Below the pieces are notes generated by a model. It saw only the letters and a program-made list of their open reading frames with translations. It ran no database searches and was not told the DNA's origin. Made by a program: the position numbers and the translations under genes. A stretch of DNA of 64,000 bases from Alphaproteobacteria bacterium LSUCC0396. GTDB lineage: Bacteria; Pseudomonadota; Alphaproteobacteria; Puniceispirillales; Puniceispirillaceae. The stretch's first letter is position 1, and each line of letters opens with the position of its first letter. Where the stretch lies: contig CP166131.1 of assembly GCA_041228345.1 (NCBI GenBank), forward strand, positions 1,977,001 to 2,041,000, read 5' to 3'. Shown in pieces: positions 17,657 to 56,281 of this stretch.

Positions 17657-18028
17657 CTATTTTTCGCCACTCCGCTTTAGTCCTCGCGCGCTCGTCTTGC
17701 GCGGAGAGGCATGACCGCCAAGCAGTCCTCCGATTGCCGAGAAAACCATGCAGAACCCGACCATCACTAATGCTGCCGGCCAGCTGAGAACAGTAGCAAT
17801 AATGGGATGCCACAAAAAGGGCGAACAGTCCAAAGCTGTTATGAGGCTGCATGGATCGATGTAACGGCTTATGATGGTCTCGCTTGCCTGTAGGCTGGTC
17901 GGGCTATGTTGGTACCACAGACGGCCCAAAGGCGCGCTGGCGCTATAGCTATTTTTTAAATCCGTCCAGATTGCATAGACGGCAACTGAACCTGCAAGTA
18001 AAGCTAATGTGCGAAATAAGTAGCTCAT
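17657..18028 (-). CDS. Small membrane protein of unknown function
   Basis: I do not recognise this 123 aa protein. It has an N-terminal hydrophobic helix (LFRTLALLAGSVAVYAIW), a middle section with two cysteines (DPCSLITALDCSPF) that could form a periplasmic disulfide, and a second, longer hydrophobic helix (LSWPAALVMVGFCMVFSAIG). The tail is basic (PRKTSARGLKRSGEK). Such a layout, two helices with a cysteine-bearing periplasmic loop and a cytoplasmic basic tail, is seen in many small alphaproteobacterial inner-membrane proteins. It is convergent with lepA, and coding status rests on this composition. Confidence 0.7.
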   Translation of the reverse strand: MSYLFRTLALLAGSVAVYAIWTDLKNSYSASAPLGRLWYQHSPTSLQASETIISRYIDPCSLITALDCSPFLWHPIIATVLSWPAALVMVGFCMVFSAIGGLLGGHASPRKTSARGLKRSGEK

Positions 18029-18380
18029 GGTCGGCTCATCATGTTCCCAAGTTACGACTGTTTCAAGAAGATTTTTGTACGCGCCTTGTTTGTTGCCTCA
18101 GCGTTGGATCTTTGAGATGGCTCTCCTGAAATAGGCAGGTAATTTTTTAACTTCCGGTTAAAAAGCTTCCACAATAAAATGTTATTGCATCATTACGCGT
18201 CCATATGAAATCAAGATAGCCTTGATTTAGCCACAATAAGCCGGGCTTTATGTTGTCTCGCCTCGCAAAACGCGAATAGTTTCAAATTAGTTGAGGCCTA
18301 TTTATGTTTTCTGAGTCTATAATTTGGCAGCAGACATTGGTTTACACAATGCGTATAGCCTGTTAGGTAAACCGGTATTG
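18029..18380. other. Non-coding gap upstream of tRNA-Ser
   Basis: About 350 nt hold no credible gene. A perfect -10 hexamer TATAAT is at 18318-18323, about 57 nt before the tRNA, but no good -35 lies at the right distance. The stretch is more AT-rich than the genes on its left. Confidence 0.5.
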
Positions 18381-18470
18381 GGAGGGGTGGCCGAGCGGTT
18401 TAAGGCGCACGCCTGGAAAGCGTGTTGGGGTTAACGCCCCTCCGGGGTTCGAATCCCCGTCCCTCCGCCA
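18381..18470 (+). tRNA. tRNA-Ser (anticodon GGA)
   Basis: This 90 nt class II tRNA has the acceptor stem GGAGGGG paired to the 3' side, a D-loop with CCGAGCGGTTTAAGGC, and the anticodon stem CACGC/GCGTG around loop CTGGAAA, giving anticodon GGA for UCC/UCU serine. A long variable arm typical of serine tRNAs, the T-loop GGTTCGAATCC and an encoded CCA end complete it. The gene marks the left edge of an AT-rich block, as expected for a classic integration target, though no duplicated tRNA 3' end was found. Confidence 0.97.
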
Positions 18471-18497
18471 CTTGTAATAGAATTAATGGCTTCAGTT

Positions 18498-19937
18498 CTA
18501 CCTTTTGATCTTGAATTCGGCGTTTACGCCCGGTGGCGGTGTGGCTCCAAATCCACCTTTTGCAACCACTGCCTCAATGCCGCCGTTAGCCTCAATAATC
18601 GCGGTTTGATCAGCCTTGGCCTTCGCGTCAATTAATTCTGGATCGCATATTAAACGTAGCTCTCTTTCCAATTTACTTCTGATATCCCTAAATTCTGGGT
18701 CAACACCAAGATCACGCAGTTCCTCAGGGTCTTCAGATAAATTGAACAGCTGTGGTTTCATCGATACATAATAGATGAGTTTCCATGGCCCTTTCCGTAT
18801 CATGAAGGCGCCGGTTTTAGATCCCATGGCGTGATATTCAGAAAAAACCAATCTATCAAAGTCATCGTTGACGTTGGCTAGGTCTACGAGTGATGCACCA
18901 GGCTTTGCTCCTGGTTTGATGCCCGCAGTCTTCAATAAGGTCGGGTAGAAATCAATCAAAGAGACTGGTGTTCTAGAGATTTTACCAATAGGAATTCCCG
19001 GGCCTTTTATAATACAGGGCACACCAACTGATTCTTCATAAAAATTTGATTTGCCCCAAAAGTCACGTTCACCGATATTGTCACCGTGGTCGCTAGTATA
19101 GATAATTTGTGTGTTGCCACTGAGGCCGTTTTGTTCCACAGCCTCTAAAATTTGGCCAATCAAATCATCGACAAACGTGACAAGCCCGTAATAGGATGCC
19201 AATGCAACGCGGGTTCGCTCTGGGGTAAAGTTATCCATGATTTGACAATTTCGCATTGCGTGATGCCAGGGATGTTCGGGGAACTCCCTAGGTTTTGTAG
19301 GCATTAAGCCAAGTGTATCATATAGATCATAGAATTCTTGTGGTGCTATCAGCGGAAAGTGTGGCGCTACCATGGATACGAAAAGTACCCAAGGTTTCCG
19401 TTGTTTACCATTCTCGGCTAACCACTCTATTGTTTCAGCCGCGACTTGACGGTCATAAACATTGTAGTCAGTTTCCCCTGGGCCAATTTTCTCAGCCATT
19501 GACAAAGCCTTCCAGCGTTTTGGTAGGGGCTCCCTAACACAGCCTAGAACATCCCCAGTTCCATCAACTACATGCATTGGTATTTTTTGAAAATCCAGCC
19601 CTACATCATCATCTGAATTTCGATAGTGCAGTTTTCCGATTGAACCCACTGTAATACCAGCTTTTTGTAATTTGCTTCCCCATGAGGGTGGAGAGCCAAA
19701 ATATGGTGTGGCGTTATCCCAATGATGCGAACGATGTGCGTAATCGCCGGTTGCAAATGAAGCCCGTGAGGGTACGCAAATAGGCACGTTTGTGTAAGCA
19801 CTCTCGAATAGCGTTCCCTGACGCGCTAAATTGTCAATATTTGGGGTTTTTATAATTTTATTTCCATAGCAACCAAGGACTTTACGAGTGTGTTCGTCTG
19901 TCATTAGTATCAGCTGATTTGGAATTTTAAAATTCAT
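18498..19937 (-). CDS. Sulfatase (alkaline-phosphatase superfamily)
   Basis: This 479 aa sulfatase has the formylglycine signature CVPSR (Cys54-Arg58), so it should need maturation by a formylglycine-generating enzyme. Metal-binding blocks LMTDEH (12-16) and YTSDHGDNIGE are present, as is VSLIDFYPTLL. It hydrolyses organic sulfate esters. The choline-sulfatase and polysaccharide-sulfatase branches are both possible. No signal peptide is obvious, so a cytoplasmic substrate such as a small sulfate ester fits better than a polymer. The ribosome-binding site before ATG 19937 is poor. The nearby TauE/SafE permease could export sulfite or another sulfur anion. Confidence 0.9.
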   Translation of the reverse strand: MNFKIPNQLILMTDEHTRKVLGCYGNKIIKTPNIDNLARQGTLFESAYTNVPICVPSRASFATGDYAHRSHHWDNATPYFGSPPSWGSKLQKAGITVGSIGKLHYRNSDDDVGLDFQKIPMHVVDGTGDVLGCVREPLPKRWKALSMAEKIGPGETDYNVYDRQVAAETIEWLAENGKQRKPWVLFVSMVAPHFPLIAPQEFYDLYDTLGLMPTKPREFPEHPWHHAMRNCQIMDNFTPERTRVALASYYGLVTFVDDLIGQILEAVEQNGLSGNTQIIYTSDHGDNIGERDFWGKSNFYEESVGVPCIIKGPGIPIGKISRTPVSLIDFYPTLLKTAGIKPGAKPGASLVDLANVNDDFDRLVFSEYHAMGSKTGAFMIRKGPWKLIYYVSMKPQLFNLSEDPEELRDLGVDPEFRDIRSKLERELRLICDPELIDAKAKADQTAIIEANGGIEAVVAKGGFGATPPPGVNAEFKIKR

Positions 19938-20171
19938 AAGCGGATGCCCAATTTTCTACCACCTTGTTAATTTTATACTCAATGTTAGCTTGACCAAATT
20001 ATTTTGCGGAAATTTAAAATGAATGCCCTCTGAAGAATTGGGTAGTATTTTGTGTCTAGCTGTCGCAAATGTAATACTCAGGAAAAGATGTAAATATTCT
20101 GGCTCAACAAAATTGATTGTTGTTACGTGGATTAATGCTCTGAGTTGATTTAAAAAACCTTTTTCGATTTA

Positions 20172-21206
20172 TTAGAAAGATTGCGATTTAACGAAATAGT
20201 CCATTCGATCAACAGTTATGATGTTGAATGTTAAGACCTTACCATTTCTTAGAACTGTTAATTCAATTGTTTCACCGGCTTCACCAGAATTCCATATTTG
20301 CTGGTAAAACGCTTTTAAGTTAGATACTTGCAATCCATCAACTGTCAAAATCACGTCTTGCGGTTTAATGCCTGCATTGAATGCAGGCCCACTTTTACTC
20401 ACTCTTGTGACGGTAATTTGATCGTTTGTGTCATCTGATGAAATCCCAATATATGGTTGAATTTTGTTTTTTCTTCTACCGTAAGATATGAGATCTTGGA
20501 GTATTGGCTTAAGGATGTTTATGGGAACCGACATGTTTCCGGGTGAGGATACTCCGGGTATAGCCTCTGATACAAACAATGACCCTATTCCTAAAATCTC
20601 GCCATTTTGGTTTAAGATGGGTGCTCCTGCCCACAAACCATTTGCCGGCACAGTATATATGGGGCTTTCAAGAAAATATTCCCACCAACCAGCGAAAGGC
20701 CTTCTCGACACAGATCTAACGATTGAACCTACGCCACGTTCGAGCGCGGGCAAAATCAACAGATCCTCATCTGAATTTATAATGTCTGAGTCTCCCAACG
20801 GTAGAGGGTTAAATTTAATTGGAACAACAGATTTGATAATACCAAACCCGGAAGTGTGATCATAGCCGACGATTGTTGCGGGAAATCGTCGTCCATCTGG
20901 TAATTCAATCTCTATTTTCTCCGCCTCAATGATTATATAGCCAATAGTTAAGATATGGGTGTCGTCTATTGCAACACCATTTCCCTCCCGCTTAATTCCA
21001 AGGCTCGCGGCTGTTCGTGCATCACTTGGAACCGAAGTGTGAATGCTTACAATGGATTGGTAAAAACTCCCTAAATTATCTTTTGTAATATTTGCGTAAG
21101 AACTGACTGTACAAAAAAGCAAAAGTAATATTGCTAGAGAGGCTCTGAAAGAACCACTTATGAGACCGTGATAAGTTTCTTTGGTTGACAACTGTATCAG
21201 CAACAC
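20172..21206 (-). CDS. HtrA-like protein with PDZ domain, catalytic triad lost (pseudoprotease)
   Basis: This 344 aa secreted or anchored protein has a hydrophobic signal segment (ASLAILLLLFCTVSSYA, 22-38), a trypsin-like domain and a C-terminal PDZ domain (about 252-330, YIGISSDD...GIKPQDVILTVDG). It aligns well with DegP/HtrA blocks, but the catalytic positions are replaced. The His of LTNxHVI is Tyr90 (LTIGYII), the Asp of the TDLALLK block is Gly120, and the Ser of GNSGGPL is Ala193 (LWAGAPI). It is probably a binding or scaffolding protein, not a protease. A GTG start at 21206 is assumed. It lies between the sulfatase and the divergent TauE-like gene. Confidence 0.85.
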   Translation of the reverse strand: MLLIQLSTKETYHGLISGSFRASLAILLLLFCTVSSYANITKDNLGSFYQSIVSIHTSVPSDARTAASLGIKREGNGVAIDDTHILTIGYIIIEAEKIEIELPDGRRFPATIVGYDHTSGFGIIKSVVPIKFNPLPLGDSDIINSDEDLLILPALERGVGSIVRSVSRRPFAGWWEYFLESPIYTVPANGLWAGAPILNQNGEILGIGSLFVSEAIPGVSSPGNMSVPINILKPILQDLISYGRRKNKIQPYIGISSDDTNDQITVTRVSKSGPAFNAGIKPQDVILTVDGLQVSNLKAFYQQIWNSGEAGETIELTVLRNGKVLTFNIITVDRMDYFVKSQSF

Positions 21207-21300
21207 TGACTCTTTCTGCTAAACAAAAGGTATCTCTAAATTTTGTCTATTCTAAATAATAAAAAATACGTCGATCGTTGAGCCTCTCCAACCAAATCAT

Positions 21301-22152
21301 ATGTCTAATCCTTTGGTTAAAGGAACAAAAAAAATCGTTTTGACATTCTTTTCCGAACTTTTTGCTGCACTTGAAATTGCTGCGCCAATATTATTTTACT
21401 CTGTTGGGTTCATTGCAGTTCTTGTGACAGCAGTCTCTAAATCTGGTTTTGGTGGAGCTGTTGCTTTGGGCATACCAATGCTTTTGCTTGTCACTTCTCC
21501 AAGAATAGCGCTGGCTGTGACTTTACCAATTCTATTAATTATTGATGTGTGGGTAGTGTTTTTTTCGAATAAGAAAATCGACTATAAACTGCTAATTATC
21601 ATGCTTATTTTTGGTCTTCTAGGTCATTTTTTCGGTTGGTATTTTTTTGATTACATATCTAATACTGCACTCGTGATGTTTATCTCATTGATGTCTCTAA
21701 TTACGGTTTTCTCCTATTTCAGAAAACGGTTTTTTCCGGTTAAATTGGATATCGTGAGCAACTTGCCATTTCAGAAGAGGCCGCTGGCACTCTGGAGCTG
21801 GGGAGGGTTTTGGTGCACTTTATCTGGCATCGCGAGCTTTATTTCGGTCTCAGGCGGTATACCTTTGCAGATTTTTCTTATGTCTTGTAAAGTACCCAGA
21901 CATACCTTTATCGGCTCAGCTGGTGCGTTTTTCTTCATTCTAAATTTAACAAAGGTACCTCTTTACTGGGACCTTGGCATTTTATCTAAATCAACTGGAT
22001 TGTTATCTCTTTTACTACTTCCAGCCATACCACTTGGCATTAAATTGGGTCAAAAAATTAATAACAGAATAAGTGATGAGCAGTTTTATTTGCTGCTGCA
22101 CATTATTCTGGGGATTGTTGGGTTGCAACTTCTGTACAGTGTAATCGTATAA
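21301..22152 (+). CDS. TauE/SafE family permease
   Basis: This 283 aa very hydrophobic protein has about eight membrane helices. It carries the family's N-terminal glycine-rich segment (VSKSGFGGAVALGIPMLLL) and its C-terminal repeat (SVSGGIPLQIFLMSCKVPRHTFIGSAGAFFF, split here by helix breaks). TauE/SafE proteins export sulfite, sulfoacetate or other organic anions. AT-rich codon use matches the neighbouring sulfatase and pseudo-HtrA, so the three may have arrived together. ATG 21301 has no clear ribosome-binding site. The start could lie some codons downstream. Confidence 0.87.
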   Translation: MSNPLVKGTKKIVLTFFSELFAALEIAAPILFYSVGFIAVLVTAVSKSGFGGAVALGIPMLLLVTSPRIALAVTLPILLIIDVWVVFFSNKKIDYKLLIIMLIFGLLGHFFGWYFFDYISNTALVMFISLMSLITVFSYFRKRFFPVKLDIVSNLPFQKRPLALWSWGGFWCTLSGIASFISVSGGIPLQIFLMSCKVPRHTFIGSAGAFFFILNLTKVPLYWDLGILSKSTGLLSLLLLPAIPLGIKLGQKINNRISDEQFYLLLHIILGIVGLQLLYSVIV

Positions 22153-22272
22153 TACGCTATGAATTTATAGATTTTATATAAAGAAACTGTTCTTGTTAAC
22201 ATTGGCTTAGCCGACCTCTGGTTTGCCAGAATACTTTTGACTTAATAGAGGCCACCCTGTGGTAATCTTGGC

Positions 22273-22977
22273 TCAAATTCTTGGCAACGGCTGTGCTATT
22301 AAGCTCGGCCAGATAAGAGTGCCGGACCGGTGTCTCAACGCCGCAGTTTCTGGCCTATCGACCATTATAGACCCGTCTGGATTAAATAGATTATCGTCTG
22401 GTGTTTTTGTGCCGTCTCGCAAATGCATCACGATATGTAACGGGCCGCCGGTAACGCTTGTCAGCTTATGCGTGATCGCTGCGATTTGGCCTTCGTCGGC
22501 CTGATTATTGTGAAGGCGCGGCACCAGCTGTTGCACCGCCCATGCGCCAACCGCCTCATCCATCCCGCCAGCACCGCCGGCATCAATACCAAGAAAATCC
22601 AGCCAGTCCGATGTCACAGGGTCGATGAAATTCATATGATCGCCGGTTGCTGGCGGCGTGCCAACGCTCCATTCATGCGTCAAAATCGCCGCATAGGGAT
22701 TATGCCGGAACGCCATCATTTTACGGGTTAGATCATCCTGTTTGGTCTTTAGCTGTGCTGGACTGGGATCCAGAAACACACGCGTTGTCTCGCCGCCGAA
22801 CAATGCAATATAGCTATCCATGTCGGGTTTGGTGGCGGCGCCTTGATAATGGGCTGCCCAACGATACCCTGTCCGTGCCAGCTTTTCCGGGATATGAACG
22901 CGGTGGAACCAATCCAGATACTGATCACGGTCGTTGGCTAAAATATCATAGGTCAAAGCCCAAATTGCGCCGGTCAT
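22273..22977 (-). CDS. Uncharacterised protein, possible EthD-like ferredoxin-fold
   Basis: I do not recognise this 234 aa protein with certainty. The N-terminus (WALTYDILANDRDQYLDWF followed by HRVHIPEKLARTGY) resembles dimeric alpha-beta barrel proteins of the EthD/DUF4286 type, which bind or modify small organic molecules. The rest is soluble, with no signal or membrane segment. ATG 22977 is preferred over the upstream in-frame start because AGGAAA sits 6-7 nt before it and the extension is not protein-like. It is the last gene of the leftward run that includes the 6PGDH-like dehydrogenase, separated from it by a hairpin. Confidence 0.8.
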   Translation of the reverse strand: MTGAIWALTYDILANDRDQYLDWFHRVHIPEKLARTGYRWAAHYQGAATKPDMDSYIALFGGETTRVFLDPSPAQLKTKQDDLTRKMMAFRHNPYAAILTHEWSVGTPPATGDHMNFIDPVTSDWLDFLGIDAGGAGGMDEAVGAWAVQQLVPRLHNNQADEGQIAAITHKLTSVTGGPLHIVMHLRDGTKTPDDNLFNPDGSIMVDRPETAALRHRSGTLIWPSLIAQPLPRI

Positions 22978-54733: not shown

Positions 54734-56281
54734 ATGAACCAGAATAGAACAATCCCTCATTCGTCACGCCGTAGTGGTGGTCGTGAGGCGAGGCGCACAT
54801 TGCGCGCTGCACCATTGGCCGAAGATTTGCGTCCAGTTCGAGCAGGGCTTGAGGGCGGTAATTTTAAACCGCTCGATGCTGCCGCGGTCAAGGCTGTGGA
54901 TGCAACAGTCTATCAAATTCTAGAAGAGATAGGCCTTACTCAGGCACCTGATACCGGCATTAAATATATGACTGAAGCTGGGGCTGTTTTGGGTGATGAC
55001 GGCCGCCTCCGGTTTCCCCGTGCACTGGTTGAACATACGCTGGCAATTTGTGGTCGGCACATCACCCTTCATGGACAAAATCCGAAGCATGATTTGTTAC
55101 TATCGGGGTCGCGCGTGCATTATGGTACGGCGGGTGCCGCGGTTCATGTTGTTGATGTTGCCAAGAATGAATATCGCGAATCCTATCTGGCCGATATTTA
55201 TGATGCGGCGCGTATCGTCGAACAGATGGATAATATCCATTTTTTCCAGCGCCCGATGGTGGCCCGCGATATCCCCGATCCGGCCGATCTTGATTTCAAT
55301 ACTGTCTATGCGGCGATCAAGGGCACGACCAAACATGTTGGGGTCAGCTTTACCGAGGCTGAATATATGAAACCGGTTTTTGAAATGCTGCATATGGTTG
55401 CTGGTGGCGAGGATAAATGGCGCGCGCGTCCGTTTGTGTCTAACAGTAATTGCTTTGTTGTGCCGCCATTGCGATTTGCCACCGAATCCTGTTTGGTGAT
55501 GGAAGAAGCCGTGCGAAACGGTATGCCGGTTTTGCTATTATCTGCAGGGCAGGCAGGGGCCACGGCACCGGCCAGTATCGCTGGCGCGGTTGCACAGGCG
55601 CTTGCCGAGGTGGTTGCCGGGCTTATCTATGTGAATGCGATGAAGCCGGGTCATCCATGTATTTGTGGCACTTGGCCTTTTGTTTCGGATTTACGTACTG
55701 GTGCGATGTCGGGCGGATCGGGCGAGCAGGGGCTGTTGACTTCAGCCTGCGCGCAGATGCTGCAATATTATGATTTGCCGGGTGGTGCAGCCGCCGGTAT
55801 GGCCGATGCGAAAATGCCAGATGCGCAGTCCGGCTATGAAAAGGGCAGTACCCTTGTCATGGCGGGATTGTCAGGACTGAATATGGTTTATGAAGCCGCC
55901 GGTATGCACGCCTCTTTGCTGGGGTTTTGTCTGGATAGCCTGATCATTGATAATGATATGCTCGGTCAATGTATGCGGTGTGTGCGCGGCATCGAGGTGA
56001 ATGAAACAACCTTGGGCGTACAGGTGATGAAGGATGTGTGCATGGGTGGCCCCGGCCATTATCTTGGCCATGACCAAACGATTAAATTAATGCAGACCGA
56101 ATATATCTATCCGGTGATTGCTGATCGTTCCAGCCCCAAAGAATGGGAGGAGTTGGGCAAGCCCAATCTTCTGGATACGGCAAGAAAGCGCAAAGAGGAA
56201 ATTTTGGAAAGCCCGCATCCGCTGCATATTCCAGATGCGCTTGATAAGGATTTGCGGGCTCGCTTTAATGTCTTGCTTTAA
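54734..56281 (+). CDS. Trimethylamine methyltransferase (MttB) family protein
   Basis: This 515 aa protein is of the MttB superfamily, with length and TIM-barrel blocks as in the non-pyrrolysine members (AVDATVYQILEEIGLTQAP, AGQAGATAPASIAGAVAQAL, MAGLSGLNMVYEAAGMHASL). No in-frame amber codon is present, so it is not a pyrrolysine enzyme. Characterised members without pyrrolysine demethylate glycine betaine or similar quaternary amines onto a corrinoid protein. No corrinoid protein or activator is encoded nearby. It ends the cupin-regulator operon with the two FAD-GcvT enzymes. GGGGAG lies 8 nt before the ATG. Confidence 0.88.
   Translation: MNQNRTIPHSSRRSGGREARRTLRAAPLAEDLRPVRAGLEGGNFKPLDAAAVKAVDATVYQILEEIGLTQAPDTGIKYMTEAGAVLGDDGRLRFPRALVEHTLAICGRHITLHGQNPKHDLLLSGSRVHYGTAGAAVHVVDVAKNEYRESYLADIYDAARIVEQMDNIHFFQRPMVARDIPDPADLDFNTVYAAIKGTTKHVGVSFTEAEYMKPVFEMLHMVAGGEDKWRARPFVSNSNCFVVPPLRFATESCLVMEEAVRNGMPVLLLSAGQAGATAPASIAGAVAQALAEVVAGLIYVNAMKPGHPCICGTWPFVSDLRTGAMSGGSGEQGLLTSACAQMLQYYDLPGGAAAGMADAKMPDAQSGYEKGSTLVMAGLSGLNMVYEAAGMHASLLGFCLDSLIIDNDMLGQCMRCVRGIEVNETTLGVQVMKDVCMGGPGHYLGHDQTIKLMQTEYIYPVIADRSSPKEWEELGKPNLLDTARKRKEEILESPHPLHIPDALDKDLRARFNVLL

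Follow-up and report, generated by a model that had tools for sequence, protein, structure and literature searches.

The window analysed here, a 64,000-nucleotide stretch of the genome of Alphaproteobacteria bacterium LSUCC0396, encodes a 344-residue relative of the HtrA proteins in which the three catalytic positions are occupied by other residues, and we consider it reasonably probable that this gene specifies a secreted binding protein with a PDZ domain and no proteolytic activity, derived from a rebuilt HtrA. HtrA proteins are quality-control proteases of the cell envelope. The gene, termed pseudo-HtrA here, occupies positions 20172..21206 on the minus strand, has orthologues in relatives, starts with GTG and is preceded by the purine-rich stretch AGAAAGAG. 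Its product begins with a signal-peptide-like segment (residues 1-39, 21090..21206, minus strand), recognised from sequence and hydropathy, in which the hydrophobic core ASLAILLLLFCTV is followed by SSYA-N and the hydropathy maximum is 2.45 over 14 residues. Two Pfam matches alone were found, both above the cut-off, namely a trypsin-like domain (Trypsin_2, PF13365, E 2.6e-10; residues 75-207, 20586..20984, minus strand), whose fold matches that of HtrA proteases, and a single PDZ domain (PDZ_2, PF13180, E 2.1e-19; residues 251-329, 20220..20456, minus strand) with a PYIGI loop of the carboxylate-binding type. The window genome, a single contig of 2.59 Mb, contains three Trypsin_2 matches, which correspond to DegP at 2459288 (130 bits), to position 55410 (82 bits) and to pseudo-HtrA (44 bits). 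The window protein exceeds no NCBIfam cut-off; its best match is TIGR02037 (Do family), at 91.9 bits vs the curated 416.2 bits, and this model is matched at E <= 1e-10 by 95 of 95 family members, the bit score being given for the window protein only.

Replacement of the catalytic site and predicted fold

The catalytic residues of the window protein are indeed replaced, as the original prediction had stated: the His position is taken by Tyr90 (20937..20939), the Asp position by Gly120 (20847..20849) and the Ser position by Ala193 (20628..20630, all on the minus strand). These assignments are based on family and control alignments. When 22 DegP-type controls, comprising DegP of the window genome and 21 loci of the same order chosen by similarity alone, were aligned together with the 138 family rows, the three columns contained His, Asp and Ser in 22 of 22 controls. 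The same triad was found in all six DegP rows of an earlier control alignment (five from the window genome and its order, one from a planctomycete), the Ser column of which proves nothing because the pattern used to choose these rows demanded the Ser motif. The phmmer alignment to DegQ likewise places His, Asp and Ser on Tyr90, Gly120 and Ala193. An alternative register that restores a triad was considered and rejected on the basis of the phmmer and control alignments and of the histidines of the window protein, which are located at positions 13 (in the signal region), 56, 84 and 117 only, with positions 84 and 117 not conserved in the family.

Further elements of the catalytic machinery are changed as well. 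The oxyanion-glycine column (chymotrypsin 193) holds Leu191 in the window protein; it is Gly in 22 of 22 controls and in 2 of 138 members. Column 184, which we take to be that of DegP Gln200, the glutamine before the nucleophile loop, holds Tyr184 in the window protein, an aromatic residue (Phe, Tyr or Trp) in 138 of 138 members and Gln in 22 of 22 controls. Gln200 of DegP is named as an activation residue in a published study (PMC11642142). A corresponding claim for a second activation residue, DegP Arg187, was withdrawn because the two control alignments disagree on its column 171, which is Arg in all six controls of the first alignment and Asp, Asn, Glu or Ala in the 22-row set; the nearby Arg169 is kept in 122 of 138 members.

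Both domains are well kept, in agreement with the original prediction, as is evident from the Pfam matches, the AlphaFold2 model and its HtrA structure matches. The single-chain AlphaFold2 model of the window protein (mean pLDDT 96.3, pTM 0.92) takes the HtrA fold, and the best 50 structure matches listed are all HtrA/Deg entries with Z scores of 22.9-26.6. The nearest solved structure is plant Deg1 (3qo6, Z 26.6, rmsd 5.0 over 283 residues), DegS (6ew9) is matched at Z 24.9, and the HtrA structures cover nearly the full length of the model. MamO is absent among the structure matches listed, which is uninformative either way. The whole chain superposes loosely on HtrAs (Foldseek TM 0.40-0.64, rmsd 5.5-10.0), whereas the match to protease domains alone is tight (3tjo, rmsd 2.5 over 179 residues), so the placement of the PDZ domain relative to the protease domain may differ in the model from that in HtrAs. 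The PDZ ligand loop is conserved in the family, with Arg or Lys in 124 of 138 members and with both Trp/Tyr and Gly in 138 of 138; the window protein has Gln250 in place of the basic residue.

A conserved, non-catalytic family under selection

The family alignment of 138 rows was obtained from 148 loci after removal of two without a match, four outside the family (L041, L205, L207 and L208) and four duplicates by the last 250 residues (L035, L036, L111 and L125), with near-duplicates still among the rows (L004 and L034, for example, represent one species). The His position is Tyr in 134 members, Phe in three and His in one, and the Asp position is Gly in all 138. At the Ser position, Gly (77), Ser (27), Ala (25), Thr (3), Gln (3), Pro (2) and Asn (1) were observed. 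No triad residue is matched in 110 of 138 members, one is matched in 28, and two or more in none. The pattern is the same among the 101 members that are less than 78% identical (His position Tyr 97, Phe 3, His 1; Asp position Gly 101). Residue 192 in the nucleophile loop is Trp, Phe or Tyr in 136 of 138 members, and Trp175-Glu176-Tyr177 (20676..20684, minus strand), shortly before this loop, has an identity of 1.00 in each column over the 138 rows. In a 95-row alignment, the invariant residues (full-protein numbering) are Leu69, Gly70, Arg73, Thr87, Gly120, Trp175-Glu176-Tyr177, Pro187 and Gly194 and, further along, Gly202, Leu210, Pro228, Gly254, Pro274 and Arg334.

Conservation is higher in the former active-site segments, which were picked after the alignment had been viewed, than in the remaining protease domain (0.655 vs 0.479), and 0 of 174 circular shifts reach 0.655. 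Among 296 columns ranked by conservation, Tyr90 is 8th and Gly120 is 20th; the Ser and oxyanion positions, ranked 142nd and 245th, drift. There is no conserved His column in the family, the best having His in 88 of 138 members. Two members outside the class, of the secreted type and from genomes G661 and G746 (L237 and L238), have the nucleophile loops DHSGAG and DHAGAP, in which His replaces the usual Trp or Phe; these genes were probably transferred.

Usable dN/dS values were obtained from two pairs, and both lie at 0.14-0.22 depending on the method. For the window gene and its 85%-identical orthologue (L071), dN is 0.068 and dS 0.496 by NG86 (ratio 0.14), or 0.071 and 0.417 by YN00 (ratio 0.17); for the pair L072-L074, dN/dS is 0.058/0.342 by NG86 or 0.063/0.285 by YN00. 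Comparison of the window gene with L072 and L074 themselves (72-74% identical) gave no value owing to saturated dS. Judged from these sequence comparisons, pseudo-HtrA is under purifying selection, and not for catalysis, since the site is dead yet conserved, the PDZ loop is kept and dN/dS is low. Because many relatives keep the same site replacement, the protein probably binds other proteins rather than cleaving peptides.

The N-termini divide the family into two types. By a hydropathy window combined with in-frame starts, and with four rows set as ambiguous by hand, 63 of the 138 rows look secreted and 71 are leaderless. Three annotated rhizobial coding sequences begin right at the domain; stop codons in the same frame lie 23, 30 and 10 codons ahead of these starts. 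On a tree built by a quick method without bootstrap, in which 41 of 104 inner branches are open, the leaderless members form approximately one clade; the leaderless label requires two changes (shuffled mean 35.9) and the secreted label five. The window protein belongs to a secreted clade together with other SAR116 members and a homologue from the 1.2-Mb genome G158 (SH-aLRT 82), and G432 carries a similar gene. A tally of 97 genomes, which omits G088 (secreted), G162 (leaderless) and the window's own genome, shows one secreted and one leaderless copy in 33, a leaderless copy only in 37, a secreted copy only in 22, two secreted copies in one (G008) and ambiguous calls in four. The selected, non-proteolytic periplasmic role originally proposed for the window protein can thus be divided: the non-proteolytic part is well supported by a dead site kept family-wide under purifying selection, and the periplasmic part fits the window member and its clade but not for the family as a whole, given the 71 of 138 members that have no signal-like N-terminus.

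Distribution and genomic neighbourhood

The pseudo-HtrA family is old and mainly alphaproteobacterial. Within the order sample, a clear homologue is present in 8 of 60 relatives besides the window genome, namely in 5 of 14 congeners (71-85% identity) and in 3 of 9 genomes of family f4 (52-54%); G008 holds a second copy at 54% identity. Homologues in this sample score at least 374 bits and other HtrAs at most 72 bits. The patchy occurrence (8 of 60) implies that pseudo-HtrA is dispensable in the order. Two single-contig genomes of 1.2 Mb (L080/G158 and L081/G432), a size at which few spare genes are expected, retain a 52% homologue. The class sample, with the window genome included, gave a family match at E <= 1e-25 in 94 of 385 alphaproteobacterial genomes, and the family profile matched at least 335 bits in 35 of 398 genomes of the phylum sample, two of them (G661 and G746) outside the class; up to five candidates were scored per genome in both samples, and second copies may therefore be missed. 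The family border is sharp, with members at 335 bits or more and the other listed matches at 120.5 bits or less. Five partial rows of the class sample were left out (three of G370 and one each of G350 and G358). Named carriers comprise 26 plasmid records of Neorhizobium, Rhizobium, Azospirillum, Phyllobacterium and Pararhizobium. The gene is labelled 'S1C family serine protease' in four of the 25 plasmid records listed and 'signal protein PDZ' in one; it is nameless in the rest.

In the window, pseudo-HtrA is flanked by a divergent gene for a TauE/SafE family transporter (21301..22152, plus strand, PF01925) and, downstream, by a co-oriented sulfatase gene (18498..19937, minus strand, PF00884). 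The sulfatase retains the motif Cys-x-Pro-Ser-Arg (CVPSR), which marks the formylglycine site in type I sulfatases. Together, the three genes of this trio were detected only in this species (L034 and L035) and in its closest relative, G008 (L071, the 85% orthologue). The four orthologues at 70-74% identity have a sulfatase downstream in none of the cases, and TauE is absent at the one of them with a readable upstream side. Over 67 context loci, TauE was detected in L071 and L035 and weakly (30%) in L084, and the sulfatase in L071 and L035 only. These results speak against the role for the neighbouring sulfatase and TauE genes that had been suggested for the window protein, and coupling to a divergent TauE gene as a MamO-like trait of the family was rejected on the same 67 loci.

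GC3 is 0.35-0.39 in the trio genes, compared with 0.49-0.55 in six genes close by. We read the trio as low-GC cargo, apparently recent, at a variable site, because the interval from lepA to the gene at 22273 holds other genes in three congeners (G005, G013 and G010; loci L234-L236). This interval corresponds to a variable cargo site at 17657-22273 of the window, between lepA/17657 and the 22273 gene. A 123-residue minus-strand open reading frame at 17657-18028, beside lepA, is conserved within the genus, three congeners having it at 57-69%. Two further records of the same species merit mention. Contig L034 (VMCW01000046.1), titled as a Flavobacteriaceae MAG, encodes proteins 98-100% identical to those of the window for three genes (TauE being partial) and is probably mis-binned. 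On a contig of a same-species MAG (L035 and L239), lepA, pseudo-HtrA and TauE are each broken by short deletions; these breaks point to assembly error because lepA and TauE are affected as well.

Elsewhere in the class, the main recurrent neighbours, whose clusters were identified by Pfam on one representative each, are uvrD and a gene for an M24 peptidase; both lie near pseudo-HtrA in 9 of 60 loci, seven of which also have prmA. Of 66 stretches, the gene caller used for context overlooked pseudo-HtrA in six, and some flanks stop at contig ends; another gene caller was discarded since it picked antisense open reading frames in high-GC loci. The uvrD/M24/prmA position suggests housekeeping synteny and vertical descent at this place, and inference of function from operons was rejected because such recurrent neighbours (9 of 60 loci) look like housekeeping synteny. 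On two Neorhizobium plasmids (L231, 7298-7831; L233, 7339-7875), the gene immediately upstream of the leaderless homologue encodes a secreted-looking protein of the DUF992 type (a name taken from the L231 record), and no tblastn match to it was obtained in the other 65 of the 67 context loci.

Possible functions and comparison with known systems

The favoured reading is that the HtrA catalytic centre would have been rebuilt, not merely lost, with Tyr, Gly, an aromatic residue in the nucleophile loop and the fixed Trp-Glu-Tyr as the replacement. The PDZ domain, with its kept ligand loop, would capture C-termini or hydrophobic segments left exposed, and the remodelled cleft might offer a fixed contact surface for a peptide, a ligand or a partner. 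The secreted branch would act in the periplasm and the leaderless branch in the cytosol. A more detailed scenario, which we regard as tentative and open to considerable doubt, is that an early ancestor of the alphaproteobacteria already had the cleft as a new, fixed binding site, which has been kept since then and serves in two compartments, the cytosolic form having lost its signal about once and often being carried together with the secreted one. We infer the work as a binding protein from the site replacement, the PDZ loop and the selection pattern.

Among the other explanations, a MamO-like partnership with an active HtrA is the main rival. Pseudo-HtrA would then be a regulatory partner of DegP, joining or activating it by analogy with MamO, an inactive HtrA of magnetosomes that is reported to promote MamE-dependent proteolysis (PMC4794232), and the window genome does encode, at 2459288, a DegP whose triad is intact. 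We nevertheless think such a partnership unlikely: a periplasmic DegP would be out of reach for the leaderless half of the family, degP is about 460 kb from pseudo-HtrA in the window genome, and MamO, in the same source, needs a TauE domain for MamE activation, which pseudo-HtrA does not have. That pseudo-HtrA acts in the periplasm as a sensor or scaffold specifically for the sulfatase and the TauE exporter encoded beside it, as suggested by the adjoining divergent TauE and co-oriented sulfatase genes, their shared low GC3 (0.35-0.39) and the retention of the trio in G008, is quite improbable in view of the 67 context loci, where both genes accompany pseudo-HtrA only in L071 and L035 (TauE also weakly in L084), and of the lepA-22273 interval, which is filled with other genes in three congeners.

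The two remaining alternatives concern the catalytic site itself. Ser at the nucleophile position in 27 of 138 members, and His in one at its own position, would agree with a protease that is still active through a changed or borrowed catalytic set, for instance with a Ser nucleophile in some members; two of the three triad residues, however, occur together in 0 of 138 members, only 2 of 138 retain the oxyanion glycine, and in the conservation order of 296 columns the Ser position is no higher than 142nd and the oxyanion position 245th, which leaves this alternative very little probability. Functionless decay of a protease gene could account for the low GC of pseudo-HtrA, its patchy presence in the genus and the frame-shifted copy in the same-species MAG, but it is scarcely credible and was rejected: dN/dS is 0.14-0.17, the gene is intact across the class, the new motifs are invariant, and the same MAG has lepA and TauE broken too, with a 99% identical unbroken copy present in L034.

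If the two-compartment scenario outlined above is true, a non-proteolytic HtrA system spanning both compartments would be hidden under the annotation 'serine protease'. A family that occurs in roughly one in four of the alphaproteobacterial genomes sampled (94 of 385) and divides into secreted and leaderless branches would show how a protease fold is converted to a stable non-enzymatic protein. Most labelled members are proteases by name, and the label 'S1C family serine protease' is no warrant for protease activity. The Rhizobium and Azospirillum carriers are tractable hosts for finding what pseudo-HtrA binds.

Inactive HtrA homologues are already known from several sources. The plant protein AtDeg16 and the degenerate second domain of AtDeg7 are likewise HtrA domains with mutated triad residues (PMC3473262); they are eukaryotic, have other architectures and are set apart from pseudo-HtrA here by their description, not by sequence. 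A prokaryotic survey of 2008 counted 42 inactive homologues among 966 serine proteases from five families in 91 genomes (PMC2605481), a count over several families in which, as far as the accessible text goes, the pseudo-HtrA family is not described. A limited search of the open-access literature on HtrA proteins and pseudoproteases, on the annotation name and on SAR116 retrieved no description of it, and within the partly accessible literature found, the family appears undescribed and MamO is the sole bacterial HtrA-type pseudoprotease.

Pseudo-HtrA resembles the HtrA/Deg proteins of the Do family (DegP, DegQ and DegS) in the order of its trypsin-like and PDZ domains, the predicted HtrA fold, the PDZ loop and, in one branch, the signal-like N-terminus. 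It differs from them in the replaced triad, oxyanion glycine and activation glutamine, in the invariant Trp-Glu-Tyr and Arg334, in having one PDZ domain and in the absence of a leader in about half of the family. With respect to DegS, which has a membrane anchor and a PDZ domain sensing the C-termini of OMPs, the PYIGI loop is present in the PDZ domain of pseudo-HtrA, and its N-terminus looks like a cleavable signal that could serve as an anchor. MamO is compared here from its description (PMC4794232), in the text of which the word PDZ occurs nowhere. Both proteins are alphaproteobacterial and share a degenerate HtrA site, a non-glycine residue at 193 and a bulky aromatic residue in loop L1, the latter being placed at 194 in pseudo-HtrA and at 192 in MamO. 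TauE, the MamO domain required for MamE activation, is fused in MamO, whereas for pseudo-HtrA it is the product of a separate, non-conserved neighbour gene. MamO also has a di-histidine metal site, whereas pseudo-HtrA has no conserved His column; past its signal region, the window protein has His56, His84 and His117 only, which, judged from sequence, speaks against a di-histidine site in pseudo-HtrA.
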